A stretch of DNA of 39,521 bases from Stramenopiles sp. TOSAG23-2. Taxonomy: Eukaryota > Sar. The stretch is from contig LT649312.1 of NCBI GenBank assembly GCA_900128395.1, positions 1 to 39,521 on the forward strand, read 5' to 3'. A model generated the notes under the pieces. It saw only the letters and a list, made by a program, of their open reading frames with translations. It had not been told where the DNA came from and ran no database searches. This document shows positions 1-30,037 of this stretch, in pieces (position 1 is the stretch's first letter; each line of letters starts with the position of its first letter). The position numbers and the translations under genes were made by a program.

Positions 1-2322
1 CGTAATAATGGTAAAAATAATAATAATATGACATTGAAAGGATACGTGAATCAAGTCGGTAAAGATAGTTATGGTGAGACATATAGTACACCTTTAGAAA
101 TAGCAACAGACCAAGCCATTATTGATTATCTATTCTCCATTCTATTAGATGGAGAAGTAATAGATGGAGATAGTTATTATAGTTATTATAGTTTGTATAA
201 GGAAGCATTTCCACGCGGTACACCATTAGCATGTGCATGTGAAAAAGGACGTTTGGATGATGTGAAATTATTGATTACAAGCCATGATGTGAATGGTAGT
301 AAAATGACATTGAAAGAATACATAAATCAAAAAGGTAAAAGTAGCAATGGCGAAGAATGTACACCTTTAATAATAGCTGCACAGACAGTAGCAAAGTATT
401 TCATCGAGATCATATATCCAGATGCATCTAAATTAGAAAAGAAGTATTATGCAGAATTTCGACAAGGTACACCATTAGTATGTGCATGTCAAGAAGGACG
501 TTTACAGGATGTGAAATTATTGATTACAGGCCATCGGGTGAATCAAGAAGGTAAAAATAGTTCTGGTATAAGATGTACACCTTTACAGATAGCAACAGAC
601 CAAGCCATTATTGATTATCTATTCTCCATTCATTTAGATGGAGTAACACTTAATACAAATACATTGACTGGTGTATATAAAAACGAATTTCCGCGTGGTA
701 CGCCATTAGTATGTGCATGTGAAAAAGGACGTTTTGAGGATGTGAAATTATTGATTATAGGCCATGATGTGAATGGTAGTAATGGTAATAATAATAATAA
801 TATGACATTGAAAGAATACGTGAATCAAGTCGGTAAAACTAGTCGTGGTAATGATTATACACCTTTACTGATAGCTGCAGAGAACAAACATTTCCAAATA
901 GTTAAATATTTAGTTGAGATCATTTATCCTCATGCATCTAAAGTAGAAAAGAAATATTATGCAGAATCTCCAAAAGGTACGCCAATAGTATGTGCATGTG
1001 AAAAAGGACGTTTTGAGGATGTGAAATTATTGATTACAGGCCATGATGTGAATGGTAGTAATGGTAATAATAATATGACATTGAAAGAATACGTGAAGAA
1101 AGTCGGTCAATGTAGTGATGGTTATGACTATACACCTTTAAAAATAGCTGCAGAGAATAAACATCAAGACATATTAGACTATTTGGTAGATGCTGCATAT
1201 GCTGATGAAACTGAGATAGTAAGGAAATATAAAAAAGAATTTCCAGACGGTATGCCATTGGTATGTGCATGTGAAAAAGGACGTTTGGAAGATGTGAAAT
1301 TATTGATTACAGGCCATGATGTAAGAACAAGTGGTATGACATTGAAAGAAATGATAAATCAACCAGGTACAACTGGTGAAGGTGTTCGTACACCTTTAAG
1401 AGCAGCTGCAGAGAACAACCACCTAGAAATTATTGAATATATTGTAGATAGTGTATATGCTGATGAAACTGAGTTATTTCGAAAGTATAAGAAAGAATTT
1501 CAAGGTAATGTATTAGTATGTTTATGTGAGAAAGGACGTTTGGATGATGTGAAATTATTGATTGAAGACCATGATATGAATGGTAGTACAGATATTGGTA
1601 ATAGTATGACATTGAAAGAATATGCAAATCAAGTTGGTATAACTAGTAGAGATTGTTCTGAGCAAACACTAACACCTTTAGAAGCAGCTGCAAAAAACAA
1701 ACATTTTCACATAGTAGATTATTTAGTTGATATTATATATGAAATAAGAGATTTAAATTTGTTGGTCAAAAAATATATGAAAGAATTTCCAGAAGGTACG
1801 CCATTAGTATGTGCATGTGAAGAAGGACGTTTTGATGATGTGAAATTATTGATAACATGCTATGATGTGAATGGTAGTGATGGTAACAATATGGCATTGA
1901 AAGAAATGGTGAATCAAAAAGGTAAAAACAGTTGGGGTGGTGAATGTAAACCTTTGAGAATAGCTGCAGAGAAAGAACATTTTAAAATAACAAAGTATTT
2001 AGTCGAGATTGTTTACCCAGATGCAACTAAATTAGAAAAGAATTATTATATATATTATGGTGGCACGCCTTTGGTATGTGCATGTGAAAAAGGACGTTTG
2101 GATGATGTGAAATTATTGATTGAAGACCATGAGGAGAATGGTAGTAATGGTAATAATAATAATATGACATTGAAAGAATACGTGAATCAAGTCGGTATAG
2201 ATAGTGAAGGTGATGAACATACACCTTTAAGTGCAGCTGCAAATAATGAACATTTCCAAATAGTTAAATATTTGATTGAACAATGTGAAGCTGATCCTAA
2301 TATACGTGAATCAAGTCGGTAA
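1..2322 (+). CDS. Ankyrin-repeat array, 5'-truncated N-terminal part of the kinase/Nudix/PARP gene
   Basis: The frame is open from base 1, and bases 1-27 already read as the Asn-rich linker that precedes each repeat, so the gene starts outside the window and the ATG at 28 is internal. It holds eight copies of a long module of about 80-95 residues, each with a line like TPLVCACEKGRLEDVKLLI followed by a variable NGSNGNNN linker, MTLKEYVNQVGK and TPLxxAAENKHFQIVKYLV. These are paired ankyrin helices, so a protein-binding array is expected. It ends at TAA (2320-2322) directly after a repeat line. The downstream frame carries the same repeat on without any ATG of its own. I therefore read this as the N-terminal part of the next entry, separated by a frameshift. 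Whether the gene is broken in the cell or by an assembly error cannot be told here. Confidence 0.8.
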   Translation, partial: RNNGKNNNNMTLKGYVNQVGKDSYGETYSTPLEIATDQAIIDYLFSILLDGEVIDGDSYYSYYSLYKEAFPRGTPLACACEKGRLDDVKLLITSHDVNGSKMTLKEYINQKGKSSNGEECTPLIIAAQTVAKYFIEIIYPDASKLEKKYYAEFRQGTPLVCACQEGRLQDVKLLITGHRVNQEGKNSSGIRCTPLQIATDQAIIDYLFSIHLDGVTLNTNTLTGVYKNEFPRGTPLVCACEKGRFEDVKLLIIGHDVNGSNGNNNNNMTLKEYVNQVGKTSRGNDYTPLLIAAENKHFQIVKYLVEIIYPHASKVEKKYYAESPKGTPIVCACEKGRFEDVKLLITGHDVNGSNGNNNMTLKEYVKKVGQCSDGYDYTPLKIAAENKHQDILDYLVDAAYADETEIVRKYKKEFPDGMPLVCACEKGRLEDVKLLITGHDVRTSGMTLKEMINQPGTTGEGVRTPLRAAAENNHLEIIEYIVDSVYADETELFRKYKKEFQGNVLVCLCEKGRLDDVKLLIEDHDMNGSTDIGNSMTLKEYANQVGITSRDCSEQTLTPLEAAAKNKHFHIVDYLVDIIYEIRDLNLLVKKYMKEFPEGTPLVCACEEGRFDDVKLLITCYDVNGSDGNNMALKEMVNQKGKNSWGGECKPLRIAAEKEHFKITKYLVEIVYPDATKLEKNYYIYYGGTPLVCACEKGRLDDVKLLIEDHEENGSNGNNNNMTLKEYVNQVGIDSEGDEHTPLSAAANNEHFQIVKYLIEQCEADPNIRESSR

Positions 2323-2430
2323 AACTAGTGATGGTTGGCCATGTACACCTTTAACGATAGCTGCATGGTTCGAACATTTCCAAATAGTTAAATATTTGAT
2401 TGAACAATGTGAAGCTGATCCTAATATTGC
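2251..2430 (+). repeat. Imprecise 124-bp duplication of ankyrin repeat sequence at the frameshift
   Basis: The stretch starting CATTTCCAAATAGTTAAATA at 2251 recurs at 2375, an offset of 124 bp, which is not a multiple of three. At the junction (about 2300-2306) the end of one repeat runs into the middle of another (ACGTGAATCAAGTCGG) within a short ATA microhomology. This looks like unequal recombination between repeats and explains why the reading frame changes here. Confidence 0.65.
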
Positions 2431-5400
2431 AGATAGTGATGGATGGAATGCATTACATCATGCAGCAGGTCATAACAAAACAAATACTGATGTGATTAAA
2501 CTATTATTAATTCATATGACTTTTGTTAGTATTGTGAGTGAAACCCGAGACGGGGGATCATACAGTCCCACATACTGTTGTTTTGAATATAATTTCAGCC
2601 CAATTCGAGAAGCAATTATTGCACTTATAGATAATTGTGAAATCAACGGATATATTGATAATGATATTCACCCTGAACGATATGTATATATAGCCTGTTC
2701 AAAAAATCCAAAAGAATATATCAGTTTATACAATGGTTTACCAAATGATCATCAAAAATTAATCAAGAAAAATCTTCACTCTCTTATACCATCCGTAAAT
2801 TGTTATGCTAATTTATTGCAACAAACATTAAAGGATAATGTTGATGTTAAATTTCACATTTCACCATCACAAATAAACATAGAAGTTAGGAAAATGGAAA
2901 TACAATATGAAAAAGTTGTTGAATTGCAAAAGCAATATTATGAGCTAAATAGCAATATTAATATTGATAACTGTAATGATAATGCTTCAATTATTGAACG
3001 AAACAAGGCTAGAGAAAAATATCACAAACATGCCAATGCATACATAAATATTATGAACAATAATTCATTTGCTGAAGCATATATTAATTATCTTAGCCAG
3101 GCATATAGAACACTTACAATTGTTAATGATATTATGAAAACAAACTTTTATTTTTTTGGACCAAATACATTATCAGATAAACACAAAGAGAAACTCAAAA
3201 AATGTATCATAGAAGCAGGTCTAGATGATAACGACGACGGCAACGACATCGATGATGATGAAAGCGCTTTACCAATGAAAATTAAAATGGAAATGTTGGA
3301 TGCAATAAAAAAAGACAATATTGACAATTTTCAAAACTTAATAACTGAATATTCAACCCGTTTATCCAATGATTATGTAATTAATGAATTGAAAGAAGAA
3401 GCAAAAGCGGCCAATAACACACCTGCTATAGAGTTAATCCAGGAATGGTGTAATGAATTTATGGATGTAAATGCAGATATGGCATCAAGTGACAATAATA
3501 ATGATCAAGAAGCCAGTATTGAAAATATTACGTTAGATATTAGTACCGACAAGGATGGAGCAGACAATGTAGGTAGCGCCACAAACATATTAGACTATAA
3601 TTGTTTACACGAGAGATTTCACCATTTTCAAAGCAATTTTACTAGTTTATTTGCAAAAATTAGCAAAGACTCAACCAACGACATAACAGTAGAATTCATG
3701 GGAAATTTGTTAATGAAAGTGAACAAATTAATTATATATGCAACGGTATTCATGGATGAGATAAAATCATCTATCGATATAATAAAAGTATTATTAGATG
3801 AATTTGATGTATGCAAATTGAAGTATGAACAATGGAAGGAAATAGTAACGAAATTTGCTATTGTAGATGACAACAGCAATGCAACCTTCAATTGGGAATA
3901 CGTATATGAGTTTAATTGGGACCAAGTATATCAGGAGTTTAAAGAAAAAAAAAAACAATTTAAGAAATTATTGAAAATGTTAAAACATGCAAAACTAAAT
4001 ATGGATGACCGTGACGAAGATGATGACGAGCAAGAATTAGAAAATAATTTAAACAAAGCCAGGGACGACGTGAAGAAAGCATCAGACGAATTAAACAAAC
4101 AATCATTGGAACTTTTAAAAATTGGACGAGAACATTTTAGGGAAATAATACTACAATTTGGCAAGAAGATAGCCCTTGGAGGATTTAATGATGTAGGAAC
4201 TGTTTGGAAAGCAATTTATCATAAAGATTTGTTTGAGAAAGATGCAGCCCCGAAGAATCATCTCCAATCATTAAATGTGGTAGAGTTTGTTAAATTCAAA
4301 AATAAAAGTTATGTGCTAAAAAAATATAATTTGATAGATGACAAAACACGAAGAGGGTTTCGTCGAGAAATAAGAACTCTGTTGAGATTAAATCATCCAA
4401 ATGTTGTGTCTGTAAATGCAGCATTTCAACAAGTTGAAAAAGAAAAATTTTCAGGTGGGACACTCGAAAAATATTCTGGTTTCATACTCATGCCACGTTA
4501 TCAGAATGGTGATCTATTGCAATGGTTAGATGATAAACGGCCGAGTGTTTATCAAGTACGTGTTGTGCTTCAAGACGCACTTCGTGGTATTGCCGCGTTG
4601 CATAAGGAAAATATCATACATTGCGATATAAAACCAAAAAATATATTTGTTGATGCAAATGAGAATGGTTACATTGGTGATTTTGATGTAAGTCTAGATA
4701 AAAAAAGTAGAACAATGGCATCAAAATTGCGAAGTACGTCCATGGCAACAGGATTTAAAGGTGGTACCTGGGAATACATGGCACCAGAAATAAAGCAAGA
4801 AACAAACGCTTCTAATGCAACCTATTTTTCCGATATGTATTCTTTTGGAAAGTCTCTAAAAGAAACGTTACAAATTGCAAGTAAGATGGAAGTAAACGAG
4901 AAGAAATCGGACATGGATTCACAAAATCCTCAGACAACAACAAATGATAATGAAGAAGATCAAAGTCAAAAAAATATTTTAAAATTTGTAAAAGCACAGC
5001 GAGAAAAATTGGACGAAGCAAGAAATGATTTAATACTCAAATTGATGGATAAAGAGCCGGAAAAGCGAGGGAATGCAAATGATGCGTTAAATCATCCATA
5101 TTTTGGAAAAGCTGTAGCCGAACATCAAAACAAACAGGTATGTAATATTTATATATAAACCAATTTTATTAATACTAACATGTTTATTTTTGCATAATCA
5201 TATATACAGGATAAGGAATTGGAAAAGAGTATAACGCACATTTTAAGCCTTCGCCAAGCCGAAGCAGATCGTTTAAGTGAATTTGTGCAATGGGGATATA
5301 CAAACCAAAATACTAAGTTTATTAAGTTGAACCATCAACATAATTACATTGTTGAAGAATCGTATCGGAAATGGAGAAGGTCGGGTAATGTTGCTACGGT

Positions 5401-7366
5401 TGATCTGGATGAAAATTCAATTGATAAAACATTTTATAATTATAAAACTAGAGACATTGATACTATGAATCACCGACGTTTGTATTCTATTTTTTTTGAG
5501 AAACATAAGCAGGCTTCAAACAATGGCGCAAACTTTTCTTGTAGTGGACATTGTTTTGAAAACAACAATAGTTTGATTCAAACGTTTGTGAGAAAAGATA
5601 CTGTTGCTGAATTACGATTTAGTTTAAAAGAAAAGGAAGAAGAAATTGCTGCACTCAAGGCAAAAATAGGTAGACTAGAGGCAGAGCTTGCAAAGACTAA
5701 ATCGTTATTAAAAAATACGCAAAAGGAATTGAAGGACAAAGATCGTCTTTTGAAAAAAACGCAAAGGGAATTGAAGGACTGTTACAATGAACTTCAAAAA
5801 AAAGAAGAAAAACTGAATTTACAAAAGAAACTCTATAAGAACAAAGATCGTCTTCTAAAAAAAGCACGTTCGCAAATGCGAGGGGATAGAAGGAAATTAC
5901 GCCCATTTGCTATGCCACCATATTGGAGGACGCATTTATTAGGTGAAACAAAGCCAAAACATTACAATACTGAATTTATGAAGAAAAAAATGGAAGAGTT
6001 GATACGAAAAACAAGTGTATTTAAAACAACAGATAAAGCTAAAGTGATAAAAGTTGAACGAGTGGAATATCCAGCATTATGGGCTAGTTACTGTGGCATG
6101 GCCGAGCAAACGCGTAAACGTCATGCAAAGGTATTGAAAAAAAATGAACATAGTTTGAAAATGAAGATGGGACAGAAACCTATAACATATAGACTTCCAA
6201 AAGATCGAGGAGGTAGAAGGGCTCCCTTATATACTATAACAACAACTAATATACGTAGTAATTATGATCGATCAAAAGTCTCTAAGACTTATAAAGGTGC
6301 TGGTATTCTCCCATATGCAATCGATAAAAATGGCACAATAAAAGTTCTATTAGGTCGAATAAATTATGGGATTATGGAACCATATGCCGACTTTGGTGGC
6401 CTGCGTGATCCTGGTGAAGATAGTACAAAATTTACTGCATCACGTGAGTTTACAGAAGAAACACAAGAGTTATTTAAGCACAATCAAGCAGAGACAATAG
6501 CTATGTTAGAGAACGAGAATACGAACAATGTTGTGAGGATACATAATGAATCTGCCCATTATGTTATGTATATGCTAAAGGTCGACTTTAATAAGTATCC
6601 TAAACATTATAAACAAGCACTGGAAACACCATCAAAATTGAAACATAAAATAGAATTATCAGAAATGAAATGGATTCCGTTAAAAGATATCATTAAAGCA
6701 GTCAAACAAGCCAAAAATAAAGGGCACTGTTACGATGTTGCCGTGAACAATGATAAGGAAATTATTTTAAGGAAAGAATTAGTTGACACATTGATTATTG
6801 CATATGACGGAGGTATTTTGGATAAAATAGTGAAAAAATCTTACTCTAGTATATCCAGGAAAAAAATATCTGCATCTATACAATATCCATTGTTTCAACT
6901 TGATACGCGTATTAATGAATTTTATTTATGGCATGGAACGAGTGCAGAGTCTGCTAAAATTTTGACCAGCACAGGCCTGCCAACAGAACACCTTGCTGGT
7001 TCAAACTCTGGTGCATTATATGGCAATGGAATGTATTTTGCTGAAAATTCTTCAAAATCCGATCAATATACACAGCCAGGTCGTCAAGGTCGTCGCGTTT
7101 TATTACTATGCCGTGTGGCACTGGGGAAAATATTTTACACGCCAAAAGCGTTGATAGGATTAAAACATCCTGGCCCTGGATGCAGTAACAAGTTTAAAAA
7201 CTTAAAGTCGACGCAAGGTGCTAAAAAGTTAGGTAGTGCTCTATTTGACTCCATTGTAGCAGATGGAAAAACGAATCGTTTTGGTGCAAAACAGATACAC
7301 CGAGAATTTGTAATATTTGATGCACAAAGATGTTATCCTGAATTCATAGTTTTGACTCCATTGTAG
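2276..7366 (+). CDS. Ankyrin-kinase-Nudix-PARP multidomain protein, joined 2276-5137 and 5210-7366
   Basis: Two exons join in phase across a 72-bp intron. There is no ATG at the start of this frame, so it continues the array upstream. Exon 1 has a terminal ankyrin repeat, about 500 residues of acidic and coiled-coil sequence, then a protein kinase (about 4130-5120): Lys in YVLKKYN, Glu in RREIRTLL, HCDIKPKN (Asp at 4622), DFD (4679) and MAPE. Exon 2 has a coiled coil (5600-5880), then VERVEYPALWASY (about 6053-6090), the usual start of a PARP catalytic domain. A complete Nudix-like domain follows (about 6290-6830; box from 6395, with REFTEET). The PARP then resumes: LWHGT (His at 6932), GMYFAENSSKSDQY (Tyr 7034), REFVIFD (Glu 7304), a full H-Y-E triad. 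The PARP half resembles tankyrase, but no zinc-binding cysteines are seen. The last few residues are altered by a 107-bp duplication. Confidence 0.8.
5138..5209 (+). other. Spliceosomal intron, 72 bp
   Basis: The donor is AG|GTATGT at 5138, the branch site TACTAAC is at 5173-5179, and the acceptor is ATATACAG ending at 5209. Removing it joins codon ...NKQ to DKE... in phase 0 and links the kinase exon to the PARP exon, both open on either side. If retained, translation would stop after six more codons (TAA at 5156). It is the only intron I recognise in the window. Confidence 0.88.
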
Positions 7367-7457
7367 CAGATGGAAAAACGAATCGTTTTGGTGCAAAACA
7401 GATACACCGAGAATTTGTAATATTTGATGCACAAAGATGTTATCCTGAATTCATAGT
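7244..7457 (+). repeat. Perfect 107-bp tandem duplication at the 3' end of the PARP exon
   Basis: Bases 7244-7350 and 7351-7457 are identical and adjacent. Because 107 is not a multiple of three, the frame shifts at the junction: the protein ends after PEFIV with LTPL and a TAG at 7364, whereas the second copy would continue PEFIV into WYKH and TAA, as in the homologous end of the neighbouring PARP copy. The catalytic Glu lies before the junction, so the triad is kept either way. Confidence 0.95.
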
Positions 7458-7499
7458 ATGGTACAAACACTAAACACACTAAACACTAAACATGCATAG

Positions 7500-7943
7500 G
7501 TGTATTATTTATGGCATGGAACGAAGGCAGTGTTTGCTAAGATTTTGACAAGTACAGGTCTGCCAACAGAATACCTGGCTAGTTTAGGTTCACTATATGG
7601 CTTGGGAATGTATTTTGCTGAAAATGCTTCGAAATCGGATGAGTATGCAATATCTAAACAACCTGGACCAGGTCATGGAGTACTCTTGTTATGCCGTGTC
7701 GCATTAGGCAAAATATTTTACACGCCCGCAGGATTAAAAGGTTTAAAACATCCTGGCCCTGGATGTGGCTCTATGTTTGAAAAATTGGAGTCAACACAAG
7801 GTGGCAAAAAATTAGGCAGTGTTCTTTTTGACTCAATTGTAGCAGACAGAAAAAGTAGGGGCAGGTCACAGCATCATTGAGAGTTTGTTATATTTGATGC
7901 ACAAAGGTGTTATCCTGAATTCATTGTGACGTACAAACGCTAA
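7500..7943 (+). pseudogene. Second copy of the PARP C-terminal half, with an in-frame TGA
   Basis: This segment repeats the part of the PARP domain that lies after the Nudix insertion: YLWHGT, LTSTGLPTEYL, GLGMYFAENASKSDEY, VLLLCRVALGKIFYTP, HPGPGCGSMF. It has diverged clearly from the first copy. At 7878 a TGA stands where the first copy has CGA, just before the catalytic Glu. After it the same frame goes on with EFVIFDAQRCYPEFIV to a TAA at 7941. There is no ATG and no N-terminal part of the domain, so it is most likely a decayed tandem duplicate. A bare AG at 7498-7499 would splice into this frame in phase 0, so a former or alternative terminal exon is a weaker option. Confidence 0.75.
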
Positions 7944-8624: not shown

Positions 8625-9200
8625 CTATTAATAAGTATAATAATCATATTTGTATCAAATTATATATCGGATATTTATTATAATAATTTTAAAGTGATAA
8701 AATACTGGAATTTTGGGCATGAAATCAATTTGATGAAAAATGAAAATCCGAGAATCATGATTTCATACCCAAAATTCCAGTATTTTATCACTTTAAAATT
8801 ATTATAATAAATATCCGATATACAATTTGATACAAATATATGATTATATAGTTATTAATACTATTATATTTTGACTATATAATTCCATAATTAAAAAACC
8901 AAGGTATACGACATAACAATACTGGAATTTTGGGCATGAAATCATGATTCTCGGATTTTCATTTTTCATCAAATTGATTTCATGCCCAAAATTCCAGTAT
9001 TTTATCACTTTAAAATTATTATAATAAATATCCGATATACAATTTGATACAAATATATGATTATTATAGTTATTAATACTATTATATTTTGACTATATAA
9101 TTCCATAATTAAAAAACCAAGGTATAGAAATAATGCATTTACTTACGGAAAATATTTTCACCTGAAATCTTGTTTTTAGTGCTATGTAGTGCTAAAGCCC
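8625..9200. repeat. Rearranged foldback (inverted-repeat) element
   Basis: The sequence carries two hairpins built from the same arm (TATCGGATATTTATTATAAT ... TACTGGAATTTTGGGCATGA). The first has its centre near 8740 and the second near 8955. The roughly 30-base loop of the second is the reverse complement of the loop of the first, as if the centre had flipped. The right side continues through CCAAGGTATAGAAATAATGC to GTGCTATGTAGTGCTAAA, shared with the element at 9208-9745. I see no coding sequence. It is a truncated or rearranged relative of that element. Confidence 0.75.
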
Positions 9201-9207
9201 TGGGCTG

Positions 9208-9745
9208 GCCCAGTCTGTGCATTAATTACTTACGGAAAATTTAGCACTACATAGCATTAAAAACAAGATTTCAGGTGAAAATATTTATCGTAAGTAAATG
9301 CATTATTTCTATACCTTGGTTTTTTAATTATGGAATTATATAGTCAAAATATAATAGTATTAATAACTATAATAATCATATATTTGTATCAAATTGTATA
9401 TCGGATATTTATTATAATAATTTTAAAGTGATAAAATACTGGAATTTTGGGCATGAAATCAATTTGATGAAAAATGAAAATCCGAGAATCATGATTTCAT
9501 ACCCAAAATTCCAGTATTTTATCACTTTAAAATTATTATAATAAATATCCGATACATAATTTGATACAAATATATTATTATTATAGTTATTAATAATATT
9601 ATATTTTGACTATATAATTCCATAATTAAAAAACCAAGGTATAGAAATAATGCATTTACTTACGGAAAATATTTTCACCTGAAATCTTGTTTTTAGTGCT
9701 ATGTAGTGCTAAATTTTCCGTAAGTAATTAATGGACAGACTGGGC
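9208..9745. mobile_element. Foldback/MITE-like element with about 254-bp inverted arms
   Basis: The left end GCCCAGTCTGTGCATTAATT (from 9208) is matched in reverse complement by the right end AATTAATGGACAGACTGGGC (to 9745). The inverted match runs almost without a break to a 30-base centre at about 9462-9491, so nearly the whole 538 bp can fold into one hairpin. There is no transposase, so it would be non-autonomous. I could not define a clear target-site duplication, and the superfamily is unknown. Confidence 0.75.
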
Positions 9746-10686
9746 TAGTGTAGCTAGCTGGGCTAGCTAGCCACGATTGATTTTTAATTTTTTGTCGCGT
9801 TTTTTAGAAAATTATTATTCTAATTATATGCACATCAAAAAACCTTTTTAGATGAGTTCTGGGAGTTACAAAATCCCATTCTTGCTGATTTCAAACCATG
9901 AAATAAATATCCGATTATTTAAAATAAATTACAAGAAACAATTAAAAAGATTGTAAGATAATCCAAAATAATTACATGAAGGGAGGAGTAATTGATTAAA
10001 TATAATTGATTATTATTGATATATATATTTTGGATATCATAATATTTCATATTTCTCATACGTGTAAAACGATCCTTCCAGTAGTAGTGTATAAGTTGAA
10101 ATAAAAATGATTATTAAAATTCCAAATAGCATTTTTAGCATTGCACAGCACAGGAAATCACCACCACCACCATCATCAAACAGCAATCTGGCAATCCAGC
10201 AATCACGATCCCAATAATAAAACTTAAAAAAAAATGTATTATTTTTTATATTATTTTATTGCATGCTGGATTGCAGTTGCTATTTGCTATAATATTAATA
10301 TTAAAATATCTATGAGGATGAGGGATCTTCTCGTGTGTGCACATAATAGTTTGCACTGGTTTTCATGACATATTAAGCCAGGTCTTAGACTTTTCAAGGA
10401 AAATAAAAATATACGTATATTCTCTTTGAATATTATTTATTTCTTTGTTTTATTAAAACGATAGTAAATTCTTTTTGTATACATATAATCGAAATAATTA
10501 TTTATATAAAAGAAATATTTAATATTTAGTATTAATAAATTTATATTTTGTTTATATCTATAATCGTTGGCTATTATAGGGTATACTTATAAGAAAACGA
10601 ATTTGTATCAATAAAGATATAATAGTATAATAAACGTTGCTATTTTTAAACTATCTAAAATATCTTTTTTTTTTACATTTGCGAAT
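9746..10686. other. AT-rich spacer and presumed promoter of the NLR-like gene
   Basis: No open frame of interest is seen on either strand. There is a short CACCACCACCACCATCATCA tract near 10160. An imperfect inverted pair (GGCAATCCAGCA near 10190, TGCTGGATTGCA near 10264) flanks an A/T stretch. The last 60 bases are AT-rich with a run of T just before the ATG at 10687. A core promoter cannot be identified from sequence alone. Confidence 0.4.
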
Positions 10687-13600
10687 ATGGCTGAAGTTAT
10701 AAATCCTGGACAAAAAGGTGGACAGGAAGATAGCTCAAAGCCCATCATTTGCTTAGCAGGTTGGTTTTATACTGATGAAAGCAGAACTTGGAAATCCTTT
10801 ATTAAACACCCAGATCTCGAAAATATACTAGAAAAATATGGTATAACAGTGAATAATCGCGTCCCAAAAAAAAAAAAAGAGTGTGACTTTTTATTAGTAA
10901 GTGAAGGGAATCCAGAAGATGAAAGAAAGGACAGCAAGGGAAAAAAATATTATTATAGGAATATAGCGCGAATAAAAATAAAAAGTAGCGAAACCAATCC
11001 TCAACAAAGTGATGAAAAACAAATTTGGATAGATGGATCGGATAAGTATGAAGCTGCAAAAAAATTAGGCATCGAAATAAAACACGACAAGGATGCACGT
11101 GCATACATTCAAGAATTGTTGAGTAATTCATATGAGATACATGAGTTAACAAAGGAGGGAACAGATGATGTGTGGCAAATAAGAAGATATGGACAATTTT
11201 TAATACACCTTTGGAAGCACAAGAAGCATACAATTATCCGTGGAATCGTTGCATTTGATAATGCAAAGAAGAAGATGGACGAGCTTGTCAAAGAAAAACG
11301 AAAAGAAGGATATGATGATATTGATAAAAACGAAAACTCGGAGTTCATAGGTCCCTCAAAACCATTCAAGTGCTCATCATTTCCACAAATAACGCCATTT
11401 TTATCTACTAAACAGAAAAATGAAAGAATTAAAGTATTTATACAAGATATTAAAGATTGCACGAAAAATAATTTTAAATTCAATATTATCATGAGTGATC
11501 TTGGGATGTTTGTAGAAATATTTTTACTGGAATTAAAGAAGTGTAAAAATAATAAGAAACTACAACGTATAAAAAATGGCATCAAAGAACAATTCAATCG
11601 TTTAGTGGAAGTTGCGAAGGAAAAAAAAAATACAGAAAAAGAAGGCAAAGATTGGTATTTTCTTTTAATACTTTTTCCTATGATCATAGCAATGGACGAA
11701 AACGAAAAAAACTATATACTTCAAAGGGATATGAAACGCATTGAGAACCAATATTACAACAGAAAATCTAAAACAGAGTCTAAAAAGGACAAATCACGTC
11801 AGGTTCCTAAGGAGCCTACTCATGACGATATGTATAAAACACATATACTTTCATGTAACCAACAAGAAAAGTTTAAAGAGCTACAACAGAAATTCAAAAA
11901 CTCAAAATCTATAGACAAAGTAGAAATAAAAAATTTTCATAAAGCTATTCGTGAGTCCATATCCCTAAAAACACTACAGAAAATGATTAAGTATATGAAG
12001 ATTAAAACGGACATAGCCGACATAGCCGAAATCCATAGCAATGAAGATGCGAAAAAAACAGAAATTACTGAAGACATAGTTGGTTTTGAATCAATCGATC
12101 CAGACGGTGGTTTGTTCACCAAAGCACCAATGGAAACTTCTAACAGTGGTGTCAACAACTTTTGCGCAGCATTCAGCTGCTGCTTTACAAGTCAAAAAAA
12201 CAATTATGTAAATTTTGTTCGCATTGGTATACTTATTCTCGAAGCAATTCCACAAATATTCAGGTTTGCTTTTGTGCACCGATGGAACAATTTATACCCG
12301 CATTTCGAGTTTAAAATAAAGCAAGCAGAAAGTGGGCGTCGATTAGTTGATGGGGGGGATGTAATTCGTAGGGCATCTAATGAAAAGTGGACAATTAGTA
12401 GGATTCAGCAGCATCAGGTAAAAAAGAGGTTTTATACATGTATCATGAGTGAGGATCTCAAAACAGAACTCACGGGCCGTATACAAAACTTAAAAAGAGG
12501 CGATGGTGAAGTATGCCTGGTTTTTCATGATACAGATAATTTCAAATATTTAAAAGCGCAGCATATTATAAAGATAGAAGAGAAAGAAAACCTCATTAAT
12601 TCCAATGATAAGACACTGAAATTTGAGTATAAATTCACATCAATTATTCTTATGACCTTCAACGATTTAATCGTTAATAAAATATTTGAAAATACGTATG
12701 TAACTAAAAAAAAAGAAAAAGAATATGAAAAAACGTACCTATGTGAAAAATTGCTTTTGGAAAATCTTTTGAAAACCACGCTTGAAAAATCCAGTGAGCA
12801 AGTTGACATTGTACATCGTATACCTGGACCAAATTGGGACAAAATTAAAGGTAAAACCATTGATGAAAATAGTAAACATCTTTTCGAAAACGCCATGATT
12901 GATGACTTAGATGTCACATGCATGAATGCCATTTTTAAAAATATAGGGGGCCTTTGTGACATGAAATCAGATCAATTCAACAAAGGGGAAAAGGAGAGAA
13001 AAAAATTGTACAAAAACAAGAACATTACGACTTTTGAAGCTTGGATAGATAAGGTTGGTGAATCAAACATTTCACCAGAAGTTATTCTTAATGAATTAAA
13101 ATTTATACGCAATAAAAAATTAGCACATCGTCATAGTACTAAGGTGCCTGACAAAGAATGGCGATATTGCAAAGAACTGTTTTTATATTTTTTGGGTATA
13201 TTGATAGAAAACAAATGGCTCAGCAAAGAGGAGGTCACAAAATTAAAAAAAAAAGTTAAAGAGGCAGAGGCTGTTAATATGAGCGACGGTATGAATACCG
13301 TGGAAAACATCCAAAGTAGAATGGAAACATTATTTTCAAATATTGACACGCAAGTAAAGGAATTTGAAAAAAACGTATCAAAGGTAAAGAAGGACGCACA
13401 ACAATTTGGAGACATAGTATCAAAGGCAGGTGATGATACACAGAGATTGGGAAAAGTTGTAACGAAGTTTGAAAAATTCGCAAGTTGCTTCGAAGATATG
13501 ATAAAAGTGTTGAATCTCAACAGTAATAATGATATAATAAAAAATGAAGAACGAAAAAATGACATGCAGAAACCTGTGAGTGATAAGATTAATTATAGCA

Positions 13601-16600
13601 ATGATTCTGGTGAAATAATTCATATAATAGTGGCCCAATTATTACTTTTAACTAAGCTAGCCGAAGGAGACAATGTTAGTAGAGAAAAACAATCCGATTT
13701 GGCCAGGAATCTAAAAAGGGCTTTGAACCAAGTGATGGATATAAGGAAAGATGTATCTTCTGGATGGTACCGCGCTTTAGACCTTCCTTCCATATTAGCT
13801 CCAATGAAAACATTAGCATTAAAATTAAATGCTATCTCATTGACAAATCCCGGAATGAATACAACATCATCACCAACAACAACAATATCATCAGATTCTA
13901 TATCCTCTGTTACAGGGCTTATTTATTTATGCATACCAAATATTGAAAAAGATAAATATGAAAATGTTAATATTCAATTTTTATTAGAAGCACAACATAT
14001 ACAACAATTTACAGGTGCAAAACTTTATCAAGGGAATTATGAAACGTTTTTAGAAACAATTGACTCACATGAAAATCAATCTATCAAATGGATACATTTT
14101 ATTGGACATGGTGGTAAAAATACATTTGGACGTGATTTAGGACTTGTATTAGCCGATGATAAAGGAAATTTAGAACATATTGAAGATGAACGTTTAATAA
14201 AAACATTGCGTACACGTACAACGCAACTCGAATTAGTAACATTTAATGCATGTTCTACAAGTAAATTAGTGGCCGCAATAACAAAACAAAATGGAGTGAA
14301 ACATTCATGGGGATGGTCAACAAAATGCCATGGTTATGCTGCAGCTATTATTGGAAAATGGTTTTATTATCATCATATAGTATTAAAGAAGTCCGTATTG
14401 GATGCATTTGAATGTGCAAAAAGTTATGTTGATGTAAAAACAAAAGTGATTGGAAAAGGTGTTGATAATGTTCTCATTTCAGAGGAACAATTTGTATTTG
14501 GTGATCCATCGAAAAAAACAAAAATTGATAACATGGATGTAGCTGGTATACCATTATTACTAAATAACAAATGGCAAGATAAATTTCCATATGCCTGGTA
14601 TGCACTTTCATATAAAAAAACATGGTCGAAGAAAATTCATAATAATAAATTTAATGAAGTGTTATATTATGTTTGTAGCAATGAAAATGAAATTTGCACT
14701 GTAACGGGCATACGTGGATGTGGTGGTGCAGGTAAAACTGTACTTTGTTTACAATTGGCTCAAGATCCGTTGATCTATTCGACATTTAAACACGGTGTTG
14801 TATATATCAAAGCAGGACAAGAAGCAAGACCGCTTAATATATTAAAACAATGTTTTAAACAATTGAAAGAGGACAAGAAATTAATTAAATTAAATATAAA
14901 GGATGAAAAAGATTATGAAATATATCTTGATGGAGAGAAAACGTTTGGGGTTGACGATGAAACAATGACGCGAAATTGGGTCAATGATAAAAAGTTAAAG
15001 TGGTTAGTTGAAAAATTACAGCAATATTTGCAAGGCATAGATTTACATGCTGTTGTTATTATTGATGATGTTTGGTCCGACAAGTGTTTTGATCACTTAA
15101 CTTCAATAATACAAGCAAAGGCATGCAATTCGCGTATTGTTATATCAACAAGAAATAGTACCATATTGGAAGGTAAAGATAAAAAAGAATTTTGTTTAGA
15201 TACATTAAATGAGACGGATGCCATTGATTTTTTCAAGGGGCAAACAAATGATAATGATAGTAATTGGAACGAAAACGACTTAAAAGATATTGTTAACAAG
15301 ACTGGCAAACTTGTCCTTTTTCTCTCCATATTAGCAAAAAAAGTTAACTTTAAAAACTACGAAGATGGTGGTTTAAATCGTATACTAAAAGCATTAGATC
15401 CTAATCGATCGACATTAAGAAACACTTCAATTGGATTAAAAAAAATCTTCAATAAAGCAGAAGATGATGTAGCATATGGAAAATCTGCATTAGCTTGCTT
15501 ATCAATTGGTGTTGATTTTATTGAAGATGATATTCAAGATGATCAAGGTAAAGAGGTACAAAATAAATATATCATGTTGGGTATATTTCCTGAAGATAGT
15601 GAAATATCATATGAAGCATTAAAGGTATTATGGAATTTTGATGATATAAATTATGTCGAAGAACATGTTGAATATTTTTCTAATCAATCTCTTTTAGTTA
15701 ATAATCGAACAGGTAAATATATTAAAATGCATAATTTACAGTGTAGATATGTGATTGAACGTTTGAAGGAAGATAATGATGGTATTGAAATTGATCAATT
15801 ACTTAAAATTATAGCAAGTACCATGGTTGAATTTCCAAATGCTTTTAAGGATTGTGTTGAAACGACCAACATTATTTGTTCATCGATTATATGTGCATGC
15901 GAGAGAGGGCGTTTGGAAGATCTCAACATATTGCTTGAAGCTAAGGATAGTGTTAATAAATTCGGCAAAAGCATTCGTGGTCATGAATGTACACCTTTAA
16001 TGGCAGCATGTGTATGTGGGCATTTAAAAATCGTAGAATTGCTATTGAGTAAAGGTGCTGATGTTTTACAAGCAGAAAGTCGATTTGGTTGGACTGCTTT
16101 GCATTGGACTATATTATGTGAACCAAAACCAGACGAATATATCCAGATAATAAATAAGCTTTTGGAGGTAAAAGCAGAAGCATTAGTAAATCAAAGAACA
16201 CGGCAAGGGGAAACTGCGTTAGATTGTGCAAGTAACAGACTTGATTCTGTTGAATTTTGTGAATTATTGAAAATGAAAGGGGGGAAACGAAGGGTCGAAT
16301 TAGAAGAATATACGAGGAAAGCTGAGCGGATAAATTACTTGTTTGAGGCGGTAAAAGATGATGATATGATAAGCATTTACATAGGTGAGCTAACTAATGG
16401 TGATGAAAATAGTGTACTAGAACATTATGTGGATGATAATGGCAATAATCTGCTTCATCATGCTGCAATGCATAGTAAAAATGCCGATACAATGAAATTA
16501 TTATTACAACACACGTTGTTAGAGGAAGCTGTATTTAAAAACGAAATCACAAAAAAGACACCATTAGATGTTGCAAAGGAACGTAAGAAAAAAAACGACG

Positions 16601-17031
16601 AAACAGAGATTAAAAACAAAATTACTAAAAAGGCGCCATCGGAAATTGAAGTTATGATTGCATTGTTAATGAAAACCAAATACGTAAAAGATTTATATGC
16701 AGCTGTTAAAAATGATAACCAGGCTTCAATAATAGAATGCATAAAGCAGCTCGATAGTCTAGCTTTAATACTGTATGGCAAGGGTGAAAAGATTATACTA
16801 GGGCATTATTTGAATGATGCTTGCAATAATCTGCTTCATCATGCTGCAATGCATAGTAAAAAGGCCAGTACAATGAAATTATTATTACAATACATGTTGT
16901 TAGAGGATGCTGTATTTGAAAACAAAATCACGAAAAAGACACCATTACAGGTCGCAGAGGAACGGAAGAAAGAAAACGACGGAACAGAGATTAAAGAGAT
17001 AATTACATTGTTAAAGATGAAATTTGAGTAG
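10687..17031 (+). CDS. NLR/STAND-like protein: BRCT-HEPN-CHAT protease-NB-ARC-ankyrin
   Basis: A single 2114-residue frame without introns. Residues about 18-145 look like a BRCT domain (GWFYTDE, LENILEKYGITVNN, KYEAAKKLGIEI). Residues about 735-870 match the DZIP3-type HEPN domain, with R808-x5-H814 in FIRNKKLAH. A heptad-like coiled coil follows (about 870-945). A CHAT caspase-like domain spans about 1090-1290, with His1141 in HFIGHGG and Cys1189 in FNACST. The NB-ARC has a P-loop GCGGAGKT (Lys1350), Walker B VVIIDDVW (Asp1460-1461), RIVISTRN (1483-1490), a winged-helix line IMLGIFPEDSEIS, and MHN (1681-1683) in place of MHD. Ankyrin repeats fill residues about 1735-2114, starting with the ICACERGRLEDL line seen in neighbouring genes. 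Residues 150-730 are Lys-rich and unassigned. The architecture implies a ligand-triggered ATPase switch controlling a protease. Cell role and ligand are inference. Confidence 0.88.
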   Translation: MAEVINPGQKGGQEDSSKPIICLAGWFYTDESRTWKSFIKHPDLENILEKYGITVNNRVPKKKKECDFLLVSEGNPEDERKDSKGKKYYYRNIARIKIKSSETNPQQSDEKQIWIDGSDKYEAAKKLGIEIKHDKDARAYIQELLSNSYEIHELTKEGTDDVWQIRRYGQFLIHLWKHKKHTIIRGIVAFDNAKKKMDELVKEKRKEGYDDIDKNENSEFIGPSKPFKCSSFPQITPFLSTKQKNERIKVFIQDIKDCTKNNFKFNIIMSDLGMFVEIFLLELKKCKNNKKLQRIKNGIKEQFNRLVEVAKEKKNTEKEGKDWYFLLILFPMIIAMDENEKNYILQRDMKRIENQYYNRKSKTESKKDKSRQVPKEPTHDDMYKTHILSCNQQEKFKELQQKFKNSKSIDKVEIKNFHKAIRESISLKTLQKMIKYMKIKTDIADIAEIHSNEDAKKTEITEDIVGFESIDPDGGLFTKAPMETSNSGVNNFCAAFSCCFTSQKNNYVNFVRIGILILEAIPQIFRFAFVHRWNNLYPHFEFKIKQAESGRRLVDGGDVIRRASNEKWTISRIQQHQVKKRFYTCIMSEDLKTELTGRIQNLKRGDGEVCLVFHDTDNFKYLKAQHIIKIEEKENLINSNDKTLKFEYKFTSIILMTFNDLIVNKIFENTYVTKKKEKEYEKTYLCEKLLLENLLKTTLEKSSEQVDIVHRIPGPNWDKIKGKTIDENSKHLFENAMIDDLDVTCMNAIFKNIGGLCDMKSDQFNKGEKERKKLYKNKNITTFEAWIDKVGESNISPEVILNELKFIRNKKLAHRHSTKVPDKEWRYCKELFLYFLGILIENKWLSKEEVTKLKKKVKEAEAVNMSDGMNTVENIQSRMETLFSNIDTQVKEFEKNVSKVKKDAQQFGDIVSKAGDDTQRLGKVVTKFEKFASCFEDMIKVLNLNSNNDIIKNEERKNDMQKPVSDKINYSNDSGEIIHIIVAQLLLLTKLAEGDNVSREKQSDLARNLKRALNQVMDIRKDVSSGWYRALDLPSILAPMKTLALKLNAISLTNPGMNTTSSPTTTISSDSISSVTGLIYLCIPNIEKDKYENVNIQFLLEAQHIQQFTGAKLYQGNYETFLETIDSHENQSIKWIHFIGHGGKNTFGRDLGLVLADDKGNLEHIEDERLIKTLRTRTTQLELVTFNACSTSKLVAAITKQNGVKHSWGWSTKCHGYAAAIIGKWFYYHHIVLKKSVLDAFECAKSYVDVKTKVIGKGVDNVLISEEQFVFGDPSKKTKIDNMDVAGIPLLLNNKWQDKFPYAWYALSYKKTWSKKIHNNKFNEVLYYVCSNENEICTVTGIRGCGGAGKTVLCLQLAQDPLIYSTFKHGVVYIKAGQEARPLNILKQCFKQLKEDKKLIKLNIKDEKDYEIYLDGEKTFGVDDETMTRNWVNDKKLKWLVEKLQQYLQGIDLHAVVIIDDVWSDKCFDHLTSIIQAKACNSRIVISTRNSTILEGKDKKEFCLDTLNETDAIDFFKGQTNDNDSNWNENDLKDIVNKTGKLVLFLSILAKKVNFKNYEDGGLNRILKALDPNRSTLRNTSIGLKKIFNKAEDDVAYGKSALACLSIGVDFIEDDIQDDQGKEVQNKYIMLGIFPEDSEISYEALKVLWNFDDINYVEEHVEYFSNQSLLVNNRTGKYIKMHNLQCRYVIERLKEDNDGIEIDQLLKIIASTMVEFPNAFKDCVETTNIICSSIICACERGRLEDLNILLEAKDSVNKFGKSIRGHECTPLMAACVCGHLKIVELLLSKGADVLQAESRFGWTALHWTILCEPKPDEYIQIINKLLEVKAEALVNQRTRQGETALDCASNRLDSVEFCELLKMKGGKRRVELEEYTRKAERINYLFEAVKDDDMISIYIGELTNGDENSVLEHYVDDNGNNLLHHAAMHSKNADTMKLLLQHTLLEEAVFKNEITKKTPLDVAKERKKKNDETEIKNKITKKAPSEIEVMIALLMKTKYVKDLYAAVKNDNQASIIECIKQLDSLALILYGKGEKIILGHYLNDACNNLLHHAAMHSKKASTMKLLLQYMLLEDAVFENKITKKTPLQVAEERKKENDGTEIKEIITLLKMKFE
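16351..17028 (+). repeat. Duplicated ankyrin module at the 3' end of the NLR-like gene
   Basis: The segment around AATAATCTGCTTCATCATGC at 16444 recurs at 16825, an in-frame offset of 381 bp (127 codons). The two modules share NNLLHHAAMHSK, TMKLLLQ, ITKKTPL and the Lys/Glu-rich tail. The first carries a few extra residues (KITKKAPSEIEV). This looks like a fairly recent in-frame expansion of the sensor end. Confidence 0.8.
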
Positions 17032-28012: not shown

Positions 28013-30037
28013 ATGCCGGAACCACAAATTGGGGATCGTGTACGTGTCATAGGACGTAATGCAATACATGAAGGTACATGCAAATATTTTGGGACCACAT
28101 TATTTCGTGAAGGATATTGGGTTGGTGTTGCATTAGACTATCCAAATGGTAAAAATGATGGTTGTGTAGAAGGTACCAGGTATTTCAATTGTAGACCTAA
28201 TTATGGTTTATTTGCTAGGGTGCAAGTTGTTGAAATATTACAAACAAGGCAACAAATTCAACAACGACAAGTGCAGCAGCAGCAACAGCAGCAACAGCAA
28301 CAACCACTAGCACAAATGCAACAACAACAACAACAACAATCACGACAAAACAATGGTTTATCAACAACCTCATCCTCCCCACCACTACGTATTAAATCAT
28401 TAGGTGGACAACTACGAGTAAAATCAAATATATTTCGATTTGAAAAGGTTCGAAATGAATGGTCAGAAATTGGAGATGGGTATGTTAATTTATATGTTGC
28501 AATGAGTGAAAGAAATGTTCCACGTGTTACACTTCAAGGTGCACGTAATAATCTTGGAATTGTTAATCATTATATTGAAATTGAGACAAAACTTGAACCA
28601 AATGTTGGTAGTGATCGTGCTTGGGTATTTCGTGCAAAAACATTACAAGATGATAAAGGGGAAGTATTAGCTTTGCAATTTCAAACACCAAAAGATGCAA
28701 TGGATTTCTCATCACATTTTGCTCGTTCTTGTCAAACAGTTCGACAATACAGAACAAAAGGTAGCAATAGTAATAATAATAGTATCAATAATAATAATAT
28801 CAATAATAATAATAATAATAATAATAATGCAGCACCACCACCAGCTCCACAATCTAATAATAATAATAATAACAATAATAGTAATGGTCAAATGGCACCA
28901 CCACCACCACCACCACCACCACCAGAAGAAGAAGAAGAAGAAGAGGAGGAGGTGAGACAACGGAATAATTATAATAATGCAAATGGTGGTTTTACTACTA
29001 CTAATAGTAATGGTAACCTTTCGAAAAAAATTCAAAAACAACGAAGACGTTTAAGTATTGCTGGAAACGATGCACGTGCAGATGGTGTAGTACATCGTTC
29101 TTCCACAACAAATCCAAATGGAAATAAAATGGATACAAGGAAAAAAGGTGCAAATTTAAATGGTCAATTTCAAGCTACATCAAGCAACACTATTGTTAAA
29201 AGTTACATTGGTATGTCAAAAAAAGGATATGCACCATATAATATTAAAAAAGAAAACCAAGATGCATGTTTTATGCATGAGGATCCAATTACACAATCTA
29301 TTTTATTAGGTGTATTTGATGGACATGGTGAGCATGGACATCGTGTATCCCGTTACATAGAGCGCAATGTACCACCAGCCATTTTTAAGCATCCTAGCTG
29401 GAAAAGTACACCAAAAACGGCAATGACAACTGCATTATTATCCAAGGAGAAAGAAATATTGCAAAATCGATCGATCAATACATCGTTAAGTGGGACAACA
29501 GCAGTAGTTGCAACTGTACGTAAAAATATATTAACCGTAGCAAATATTGGAGATTCCAGATTGATATTAGCATTGAGAAATAATAAAAATCGTTTAAAAC
29601 CATGTAGTGTGACGGAGGATCATAAACCAGATTTACCAACGGAACAAAAAAGAATTGAACGAGCTGGTGGACGTGTATGGGCAATGACATATGATGATGG
29701 TGTAGATGGCCCTGCAAGAGTATGGTTAAAAGATCAAGAATTACCAGGCCTTGCCATGTCACGTAGTATTGGTGATGAAGTTGCAAAACGTGCTGGGGTT
29801 ATCTCCAATCCAGAAATATTTGAATATGAAGTACCAGAACAAGCTGCATTTTTATGTATGGCAACTGATGGTTTATGGGAATTCATGTCGGATGATGATG
29901 TAGTTCATATCATTGAACAAGCAAATGGGAATGGTAAATTAGCAATACAAACATTGATGAAAGAATCAGAACGAAGATGGAAAAACGAAGAGCCTGTAGT
30001 GGACGATACGACGGTAGTCATTGCATATTTTGAGTAA
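28013..30037 (+). CDS. CAP-Gly, Ran-binding/PH-like and PP2C phosphatase fusion
   Basis: A 674-residue frame. Residues 3-75 form a CAP-Gly domain with the tubulin-tail groove motif GKNDG (46-50) and RYFNC. After a Gln-rich linker, residues about 130-245 resemble a Ran-binding (RanBP1-type) PH fold: NIFRFEKVRNEWSEIGDGYV, then DRAWVFRAKTLQDDKGEVLA and DFSSHFARSC. A linker with Asn, Pro and Glu runs follows. Residues about 395-673 are a PP2C metal-dependent phosphatase: GVFDGHGEHG (Asp436), SGTTA, ANIGDSR, SRSIGD, ATDGLWEFM (Asp619), DDTTV (Asp664-665). All metal-binding acidic residues expected of an active enzyme are present. The fusion suggests a Ser/Thr phosphatase recruited to microtubules. 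The leader is A-rich, and TAA ends the frame. Confidence 0.9.
   Translation: MPEPQIGDRVRVIGRNAIHEGTCKYFGTTLFREGYWVGVALDYPNGKNDGCVEGTRYFNCRPNYGLFARVQVVEILQTRQQIQQRQVQQQQQQQQQQPLAQMQQQQQQQSRQNNGLSTTSSSPPLRIKSLGGQLRVKSNIFRFEKVRNEWSEIGDGYVNLYVAMSERNVPRVTLQGARNNLGIVNHYIEIETKLEPNVGSDRAWVFRAKTLQDDKGEVLALQFQTPKDAMDFSSHFARSCQTVRQYRTKGSNSNNNSINNNNINNNNNNNNNAAPPPAPQSNNNNNNNNSNGQMAPPPPPPPPPEEEEEEEEEVRQRNNYNNANGGFTTTNSNGNLSKKIQKQRRRLSIAGNDARADGVVHRSSTTNPNGNKMDTRKKGANLNGQFQATSSNTIVKSYIGMSKKGYAPYNIKKENQDACFMHEDPITQSILLGVFDGHGEHGHRVSRYIERNVPPAIFKHPSWKSTPKTAMTTALLSKEKEILQNRSINTSLSGTTAVVATVRKNILTVANIGDSRLILALRNNKNRLKPCSVTEDHKPDLPTEQKRIERAGGRVWAMTYDDGVDGPARVWLKDQELPGLAMSRSIGDEVAKRAGVISNPEIFEYEVPEQAAFLCMATDGLWEFMSDDDVVHIIEQANGNGKLAIQTLMKESERRWKNEEPVVDDTTVVIAYFE

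Follow-up and report, generated by a model that had tools for sequence, protein, structure and literature searches.

We describe here a single gene of contig LT649312.1, whose 39,521 nucleotides are hereafter called the window, encoding a protein of 2114 residues. This protein is probably an NLR-like receptor of the STAND/NB-ARC type that incorporates a CHAT caspase-like protease; a ligand sensed by the C-terminal repeats would lead to assembly and to cleavage by CHAT, with cell death or immunity as the probable output. The computed elements of this reading are the open reading frame (ORF), the CHAT fold and its residues, the NB-ARC motifs, the winged helix, the ankyrin repeats and the varied C-terminal modules behind related CHAT domains. 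NB-ARC, winged helix and repeats stand in this order behind a predicted effector, which is the order of NLRs:

10687..17031, + strand, whole gene, one open frame from an ATG start to a TAG stop, 2114 aa
13912..14550, + strand, CHAT caspase-like protease domain, residues 1076-1288
14107..14109, + strand, His1141, predicted catalytic
14251..14253, + strand, Cys1189, predicted catalytic
14683..15354, + strand, NB-ARC domain, residues 1333-1556
14716..14739, + strand, Walker A (P-loop) GCGGAGKT, residues 1344-1351
15052..15069, + strand, Walker B VVIIDD, residues 1456-1461
15133..15156, + strand, RIVISTRN sensor segment, residues 1483-1490
15556..15747, + strand, APAF-1-like winged helix, residues 1624-1687
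15727..15735, + strand, MHN, a variant of the MHD motif, residues 1681-1683
15886..16107, + strand, canonical ankyrin repeats, residues 1734-1807
16404..16625, + strand, first copy of an internally duplicated ankyrin block
16785..17006, + strand, second copy of this block

An uninterrupted forward-strand frame was recovered at the coordinates given by the original prediction; at the base composition of the window, a run of 2138 codons without a stop has a probability near 1e-77. The CHAT domain (PF12770, curated cut-off 24 bits) passed its profile test as a fragment (26.3 bits) and in the genome search (25.6 bits), and scored 22.1 bits, under the cut-off, in the whole-protein Pfam scan. Its histidine and cysteine lie exactly where they had been placed, in HFIGHGG and FNACST. 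Compared with solved structures, the CHAT region gave one match, the bacterial SAVED-CHAT protein 8tl0 (E 0.0028), in an alignment that includes the HFIGHG and NAC segments.

The NB-ARC domain was likewise confirmed, well over its cut-off in the whole-protein scan (E 7.5e-14, 52 versus 23.5 bits), and the predicted full P-loop, Walker B and RIVISTRN segments were all found. Among solved structures, 12 distinct sequences matched this region at E<=1, 11 of them plant NLRs, with ADR1 as the best match (E 1.1e-5) and Sr35 at E 9.2e-4. The winged helix, also predicted beforehand, proved to be APAF-1-like, passing its 27-bit cut-off as a fragment (28.2 bits) and remaining under it in the whole protein (21.8 bits).

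The C-terminal ankyrin repeats were detected well over cut-off (Ank_2 E 6.2e-20 in the whole-protein scan), in agreement with the original prediction. A single weak match, within the same region, was returned by the NCBIfam scan, and no match by the PADLOC scan. Further downstream, a 222-nt ankyrin block is duplicated in frame, its copies sharing 87% identity at a start-to-start distance of 381 nt; this duplication was not among the repeats reported by Tandem Repeats Finder. Over its 58 codons, nonsynonymous and synonymous divergence (dN and dS) amounted to 0.114 and 0.099 with NG86, and to 0.144 and 0.054 with YN00. A dN close to dS or above it, depending on the method, would fit a sensor that has changed recently, but since 58 codons are too few we do not claim positive selection.

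Relatives were searched among proteins of 0.55 to 1.75 times the query length. With residues 1000-1700 as query, one relative passed E 1e-3 among 7150 candidates, namely P0001 (1367 aa), which comes from an ENA metagenome source. P0001 as query retrieved no protein other than itself among 7997 scored, residues 1-905 had no hit at E<=10 in 7987 scored proteins, and neither the viral contigs (three scans) nor the bacterial and archaeal genomes (one scan) yielded a confirmed relative. When the window protein is compared with P0001, conservation is highest in CHAT (67.5% identity over 212 columns), and behind it P0001 carries a protein kinase and leucine-rich repeats (LRRs) in place of NB-ARC and ankyrin. 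A structure model built from alignment A7 gave a predicted caspase/CHAT fold. Alignments A3, A4 and A6, in which the N-terminus or kinase of P0001 was mispaired with unrelated parts of the window protein, and A5, in which C176 was misplaced, were excluded from folding and from our claims.

Further CHAT-like proteins were found in the same genome (an assembly of 17.45 Mb in 793 contigs, in which the window is contig C79). In C10 and C727, CHAT is accompanied by a ResIII/SF1-like P-loop NTPase that exceeds its cut-off and by weak LRR matches; C169 follows the order SPRY-SAM-CHAT-NB-ARC, with CHAT at 48.2 bits, over cut-off; and C40 fuses a degenerate CHAT (L007:1501-2220) to an NPHP3-type NACHT and WD40 repeats. 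The CHAT profile scored under cut-off in P0001 (18.2 bits), C10 (13.8 bits) and C727 (19.3 bits), and did not figure in the 25 families shown for C40; in these four, the CHAT assignment comes from their alignment to the window protein. Related CHAT modules therefore precede varied NTPase, kinase and repeat partners. One caspase-family (PF00656) match was found in this genome, on C505.

The His and Cys pair is kept in four of the five aligned CHAT relatives (P0001, C10, C727 and C169), and replaced by Arg and Ala, respectively, in C40, possibly a pseudo-protease receptor judging from these substitutions. C40 bears on the idea that CHAT is a structural or scaffold domain of a non-proteolytic STAND signalling platform: there, a CHAT without His or Cys is still joined to NACHT and WD40, and CHAT can therefore persist without catalysis in this family. 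For the window protein, which keeps both residues as do its four other relatives, and whose CHAT is the part best conserved with P0001, we regard this idea as quite improbable. The window protein is put forward as a concrete candidate enzyme (C1189/H1141), for which the dead CHAT of C40 offers a natural comparison.

In the protease-receptor reading that we favour, the NB-ARC-winged-helix unit would keep the protein closed at rest until the C-terminal ankyrin repeats see a ligand or a modified host protein and the switch opens. NTP exchange could then allow the protein to assemble, putting CHAT (H1141/C1189) in an active arrangement in which it would cleave a partner protein, and this cleavage would probably start a cell-death or immune response. 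We infer ligand sensing, assembly, protease activity, substrate and immune role, as well as any RNase activity, from these predicted parts; by analogy with the family, the ligand-triggered oligomerisation and protease activation put forward in the original prediction are reasonable.

CHAT proteases act in bacterial defence, and caspase-like proteases wired into NTPase receptors have been reported from fungi. In fungi, some of the proteins that control gasdermins are NLR sensors bearing CHAT, and Podospora has a CHAT protease with TPRs by which gasdermin is activated (PMC12881547, PMC10197012); in Aspergillus, an incompatibility gene has an allele whose product is a predicted CHAT protein (PMC11138114). 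Fungal CHAT-NLRs, often located near gasdermin genes, share with the window protein a CHAT within an NLR and a contracted protease-in-receptor design (PMC10197012, PMC12881547), and ankyrin, as carried by the window protein, is among the repeats reported for gasdermin-controlling proteases, next to TPR and WD40. Unlike them, the window protein has its CHAT in mid-protein, after ~1070 N-terminal residues including a probable HEPN domain, and its genome returned no gasdermin-family match (with a weak control, see below). The window protein would be a variant of the CHAT-NLR, a type known from fungi.

Likenesses were also found in other lineages. Bacterial SAVED-CHAT (8tl0) shares the CHAT fold and the aligned HFIGHG and NAC, but is switched on by its SAVED domain rather than by NB-ARC. 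The plant NLRs ADR1 and Sr35 share the NB-ARC motifs and the winged-helix segment; plant NLRs carry leucine-rich repeats and CC/RPW8 N-termini where the window protein has ankyrin repeats and a protease. Coral and human TPR-CHAT proteins, expanded in corals, also join CHAT to repeats, in the order N-terminal TPR then CHAT, and NB-ARC does not appear in the text on them (PMC12314368).

The relatives within the genome also bear on a function outside immunity. C40 (L021:1535-7309), C10 (L022:1911-6278) and C727 (L023:1615-5961) each carry an N-terminal S74 region, followed by CHAT and then the NTPase. Peptidase_S74 was over cut-off in C40 (29.7 bits) and C10 (28.7 bits), whereas the region was assigned by alignment only in C727, which was not among the seven S74 matches. 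S74 is an intramolecular chaperone, the self-cleaving part of MyRF-type transcription regulators, and its presence in C10 and C40 points to regulated proteolysis outside immunity. That the window protein is a developmental or stress regulator built from the same parts nevertheless seems doubtful to us, as fungal receptors of incompatibility and immunity are built in this way, from NB-ARC with winged helix and repeats plus CHAT.

The N-terminal half carries three further features, all relating to a probable HEPN domain:

12211..12342, + strand, presumed first half of a probable DZIP3-like HEPN, residues 509-552, common to residues 38-81 of P0001
12904..13221, + strand, second half of the probable HEPN, residues 740-845, with sub-cut-off profile matches
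13108..13128, + strand, R808-N-K-K-L-A-H814, a HEPN Rx4-6H-type motif (Rx5H)

The first half is shared with P0001 beyond chance (none of 1000 shuffles reached its score; BLASTP E 8e-4 in a two-sequence comparison); scanned alone, this stretch listed no Pfam family. The second half showed no detectable similarity to P0001, 320 of 1000 shuffles scoring as high. Within the fragment 735-870, HEPN_DZIP3 (PF18738, curated cut-off 27 bits; E 0.027, 14.7 bits) and HEPN_AbiU2 (E 0.042) ranked second and third of four weak matches, both under cut-off and both covering R808-N-K-K-L-A-H814. A composite of the presumed halves gave HEPN_DZIP3 as the better of two matches (E 0.0077, 16.5 versus 27 bits). DZIP3-type proteins also carry NF.R and DVT segments, resembling those at residues 509 and 742. 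The published HEPN motif rule is Rx4-6H with a polar residue after R, which R808-N fits (PMC3710099). The only PDB sequence that matched the region (E 1.6) was unrelated. Altogether, we lean towards a HEPN in the N-terminal half: this component of the original prediction is carried by the Rx5H motif and the weak matches covering it, and is tempered by profile scores under cut-off wherever HEPN was listed.

Such a domain, if real, could provide a second, RNA-cutting output. It might even be the main effector, CHAT only trimming or activating the receptor itself: R808-N-x4-H814 is intact, and more than 50 NACHT proteins with an N-terminal DZIP3-HEPN are described in a pearl oyster study (PMC9646362). 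We find this unlikely, given that the HEPN profile is not significant, that HEPN would need a long insertion and that CHAT is far better supported.

Several observations weigh against the receptor reading as a whole. The MHD-like motif of the original prediction reads MHN, and the predicted local distance difference test (pLDDT) score of the model stayed under 50 across the NB-ARC part. HEPN scored under its curated cut-off in the only two scans to list it, gave no match at E<=1 in the whole-protein scan, was not listed even at E<=10 when a 407-aa fragment beginning at residue 492 and covering the whole region was scanned, and was absent from all P0001 fragments and from the P0001 composite; the genome search also gave no HEPN match at E<=1, but as its control matched nowhere this proves nothing. 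On the substrate side, the 17.45 Mb of the genome contained nothing that matched the gasdermin family (PF04598), the classical substrate, at E<=1, in a search whose control matched one of 14 genomes, and none over cut-off, and which thus cannot exclude gasdermin.

Animal DZIP3/hRUL138-like HEPN-NACHT receptors resemble the window protein in having a DZIP3-like HEPN, probable in our case, before a STAND ATPase with repeats behind (PMC9646362, PMC8260672, PMC3710099); they differ by NACHT where the window protein has NB-ARC, and by the CHAT lying in between. The word CHAT is absent from the main text of PMC9646362 and PMC8260672. The original prediction had considered its combination of domains undescribed. 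In the open-licence literature, a scope that leaves most subscription papers and preprints outside and absence in print unproven, no paper jointly treated the CHAT domain, NB-ARC and HEPN, and wider searches found no report of such a protein. The three papers joining the CHAT domain, gasdermin and NB-ARC were all on fungi; for at least three of DZIP3, HEPN, CHAT and NACHT, the only CHAT paper among the matches listed was a review of phage defence systems; and Peptidase_S74 together with CHAT occurred in one paper, on Klebsiella prophages. Novelty may hold for the joint combination; parts of it have precedents, CHAT-NLRs among fungi and the pairing of DZIP3-HEPN with a STAND ATPase among animals. 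As to the content of the original prediction, the CHAT, NB-ARC/STAND and ankyrin core stands on profile tests, solved-structure matches and the predicted fold; HEPN is plausible only, and BRCT, treated below, did not hold.

More tentatively, the window protein could be a dual-output receptor, with a HEPN RNase and a CHAT protease on one NB-ARC switch, within a lineage-specific combinatorial set of protease alarms possibly outside animals, plants and fungi. This possible set would comprise CHAT with NB-ARC/ankyrin, with kinase/LRR, with helicase-like/LRR and with NACHT/WD40, together with S74-fused members and one dead copy. Should the organism fall in a further eukaryotic lineage, finding this core there, joined to kinase, helicase-like, NACHT and NB-ARC partners, would be of help in testing whether death receptors of this kind are ancient or arose by repeated assembly.

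Two remaining segments of the protein were delineated:

10744..11121, + strand, BRCT of the original prediction, residues 20-145, not established
13222..13830, + strand, linker ahead of CHAT, residues 846-1048, 19% identical to the P0001 linker (34 of 1000 shuffles reach the score)

The BRCT was not retained. The whole-protein Pfam scan lent it no support. In the fragment scan, PF00533 (curated cut-off 21.3 bits) came third of four weak matches (E 0.075, 13.7 bits), and the hhalign score against a profile of six BRCT stretches from the same genome fell inside the null distribution, since as high a score was reached by 18 of 73 other segments and by 28 of 100 shuffles. The best PDB match of residues 1-160 (E 0.96) was unrelated. 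A divergent BRCT in residues 20-145 is possible. A single-sequence AlphaFold model of residues 1-858 had a mean pLDDT of 32.8, unusable for either a BRCT or a HEPN fold.

Base composition also varies along the ORF, guanine-cytosine content at third codon positions being 0.126 in CHAT (residues 1060-1290; window 13864-14556), 0.207 in residues 1290-1700 and 0.246-0.329 in the other five segments, a contrast that may reflect modules of different age.

The remaining genes of the window look eukaryotic, encoding protein kinases, PARP, a CAP-Gly protein with RanBP1 and PP2C, and ankyrin and LRR proteins; the Rfam scan of the window and the 5.8S search gave no match. At 1-5158, two overlapping frames encode ankyrin repeats (1-2322), then ankyrin repeats with a protein kinase (2276-5158), and may be pieces of a single gene interrupted by an intron or a frameshift. 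The PARP gene (ORF 5219-7366) has its 3' part copied partially and in tandem at 7351-7927, with one 107-nt stretch repeated exactly followed by diverged copies at 62-86%. Between these copies and the CHAT gene, nested long inverted repeats at 8646-9748, with arms of 279 nt (99%) and 257 nt (96%), are possibly hairpin-forming or a mobile-element remnant. Finally, the CAP-Gly, RanBP1 and PP2C domains are combined in one unusual ORF at 28013-30037.

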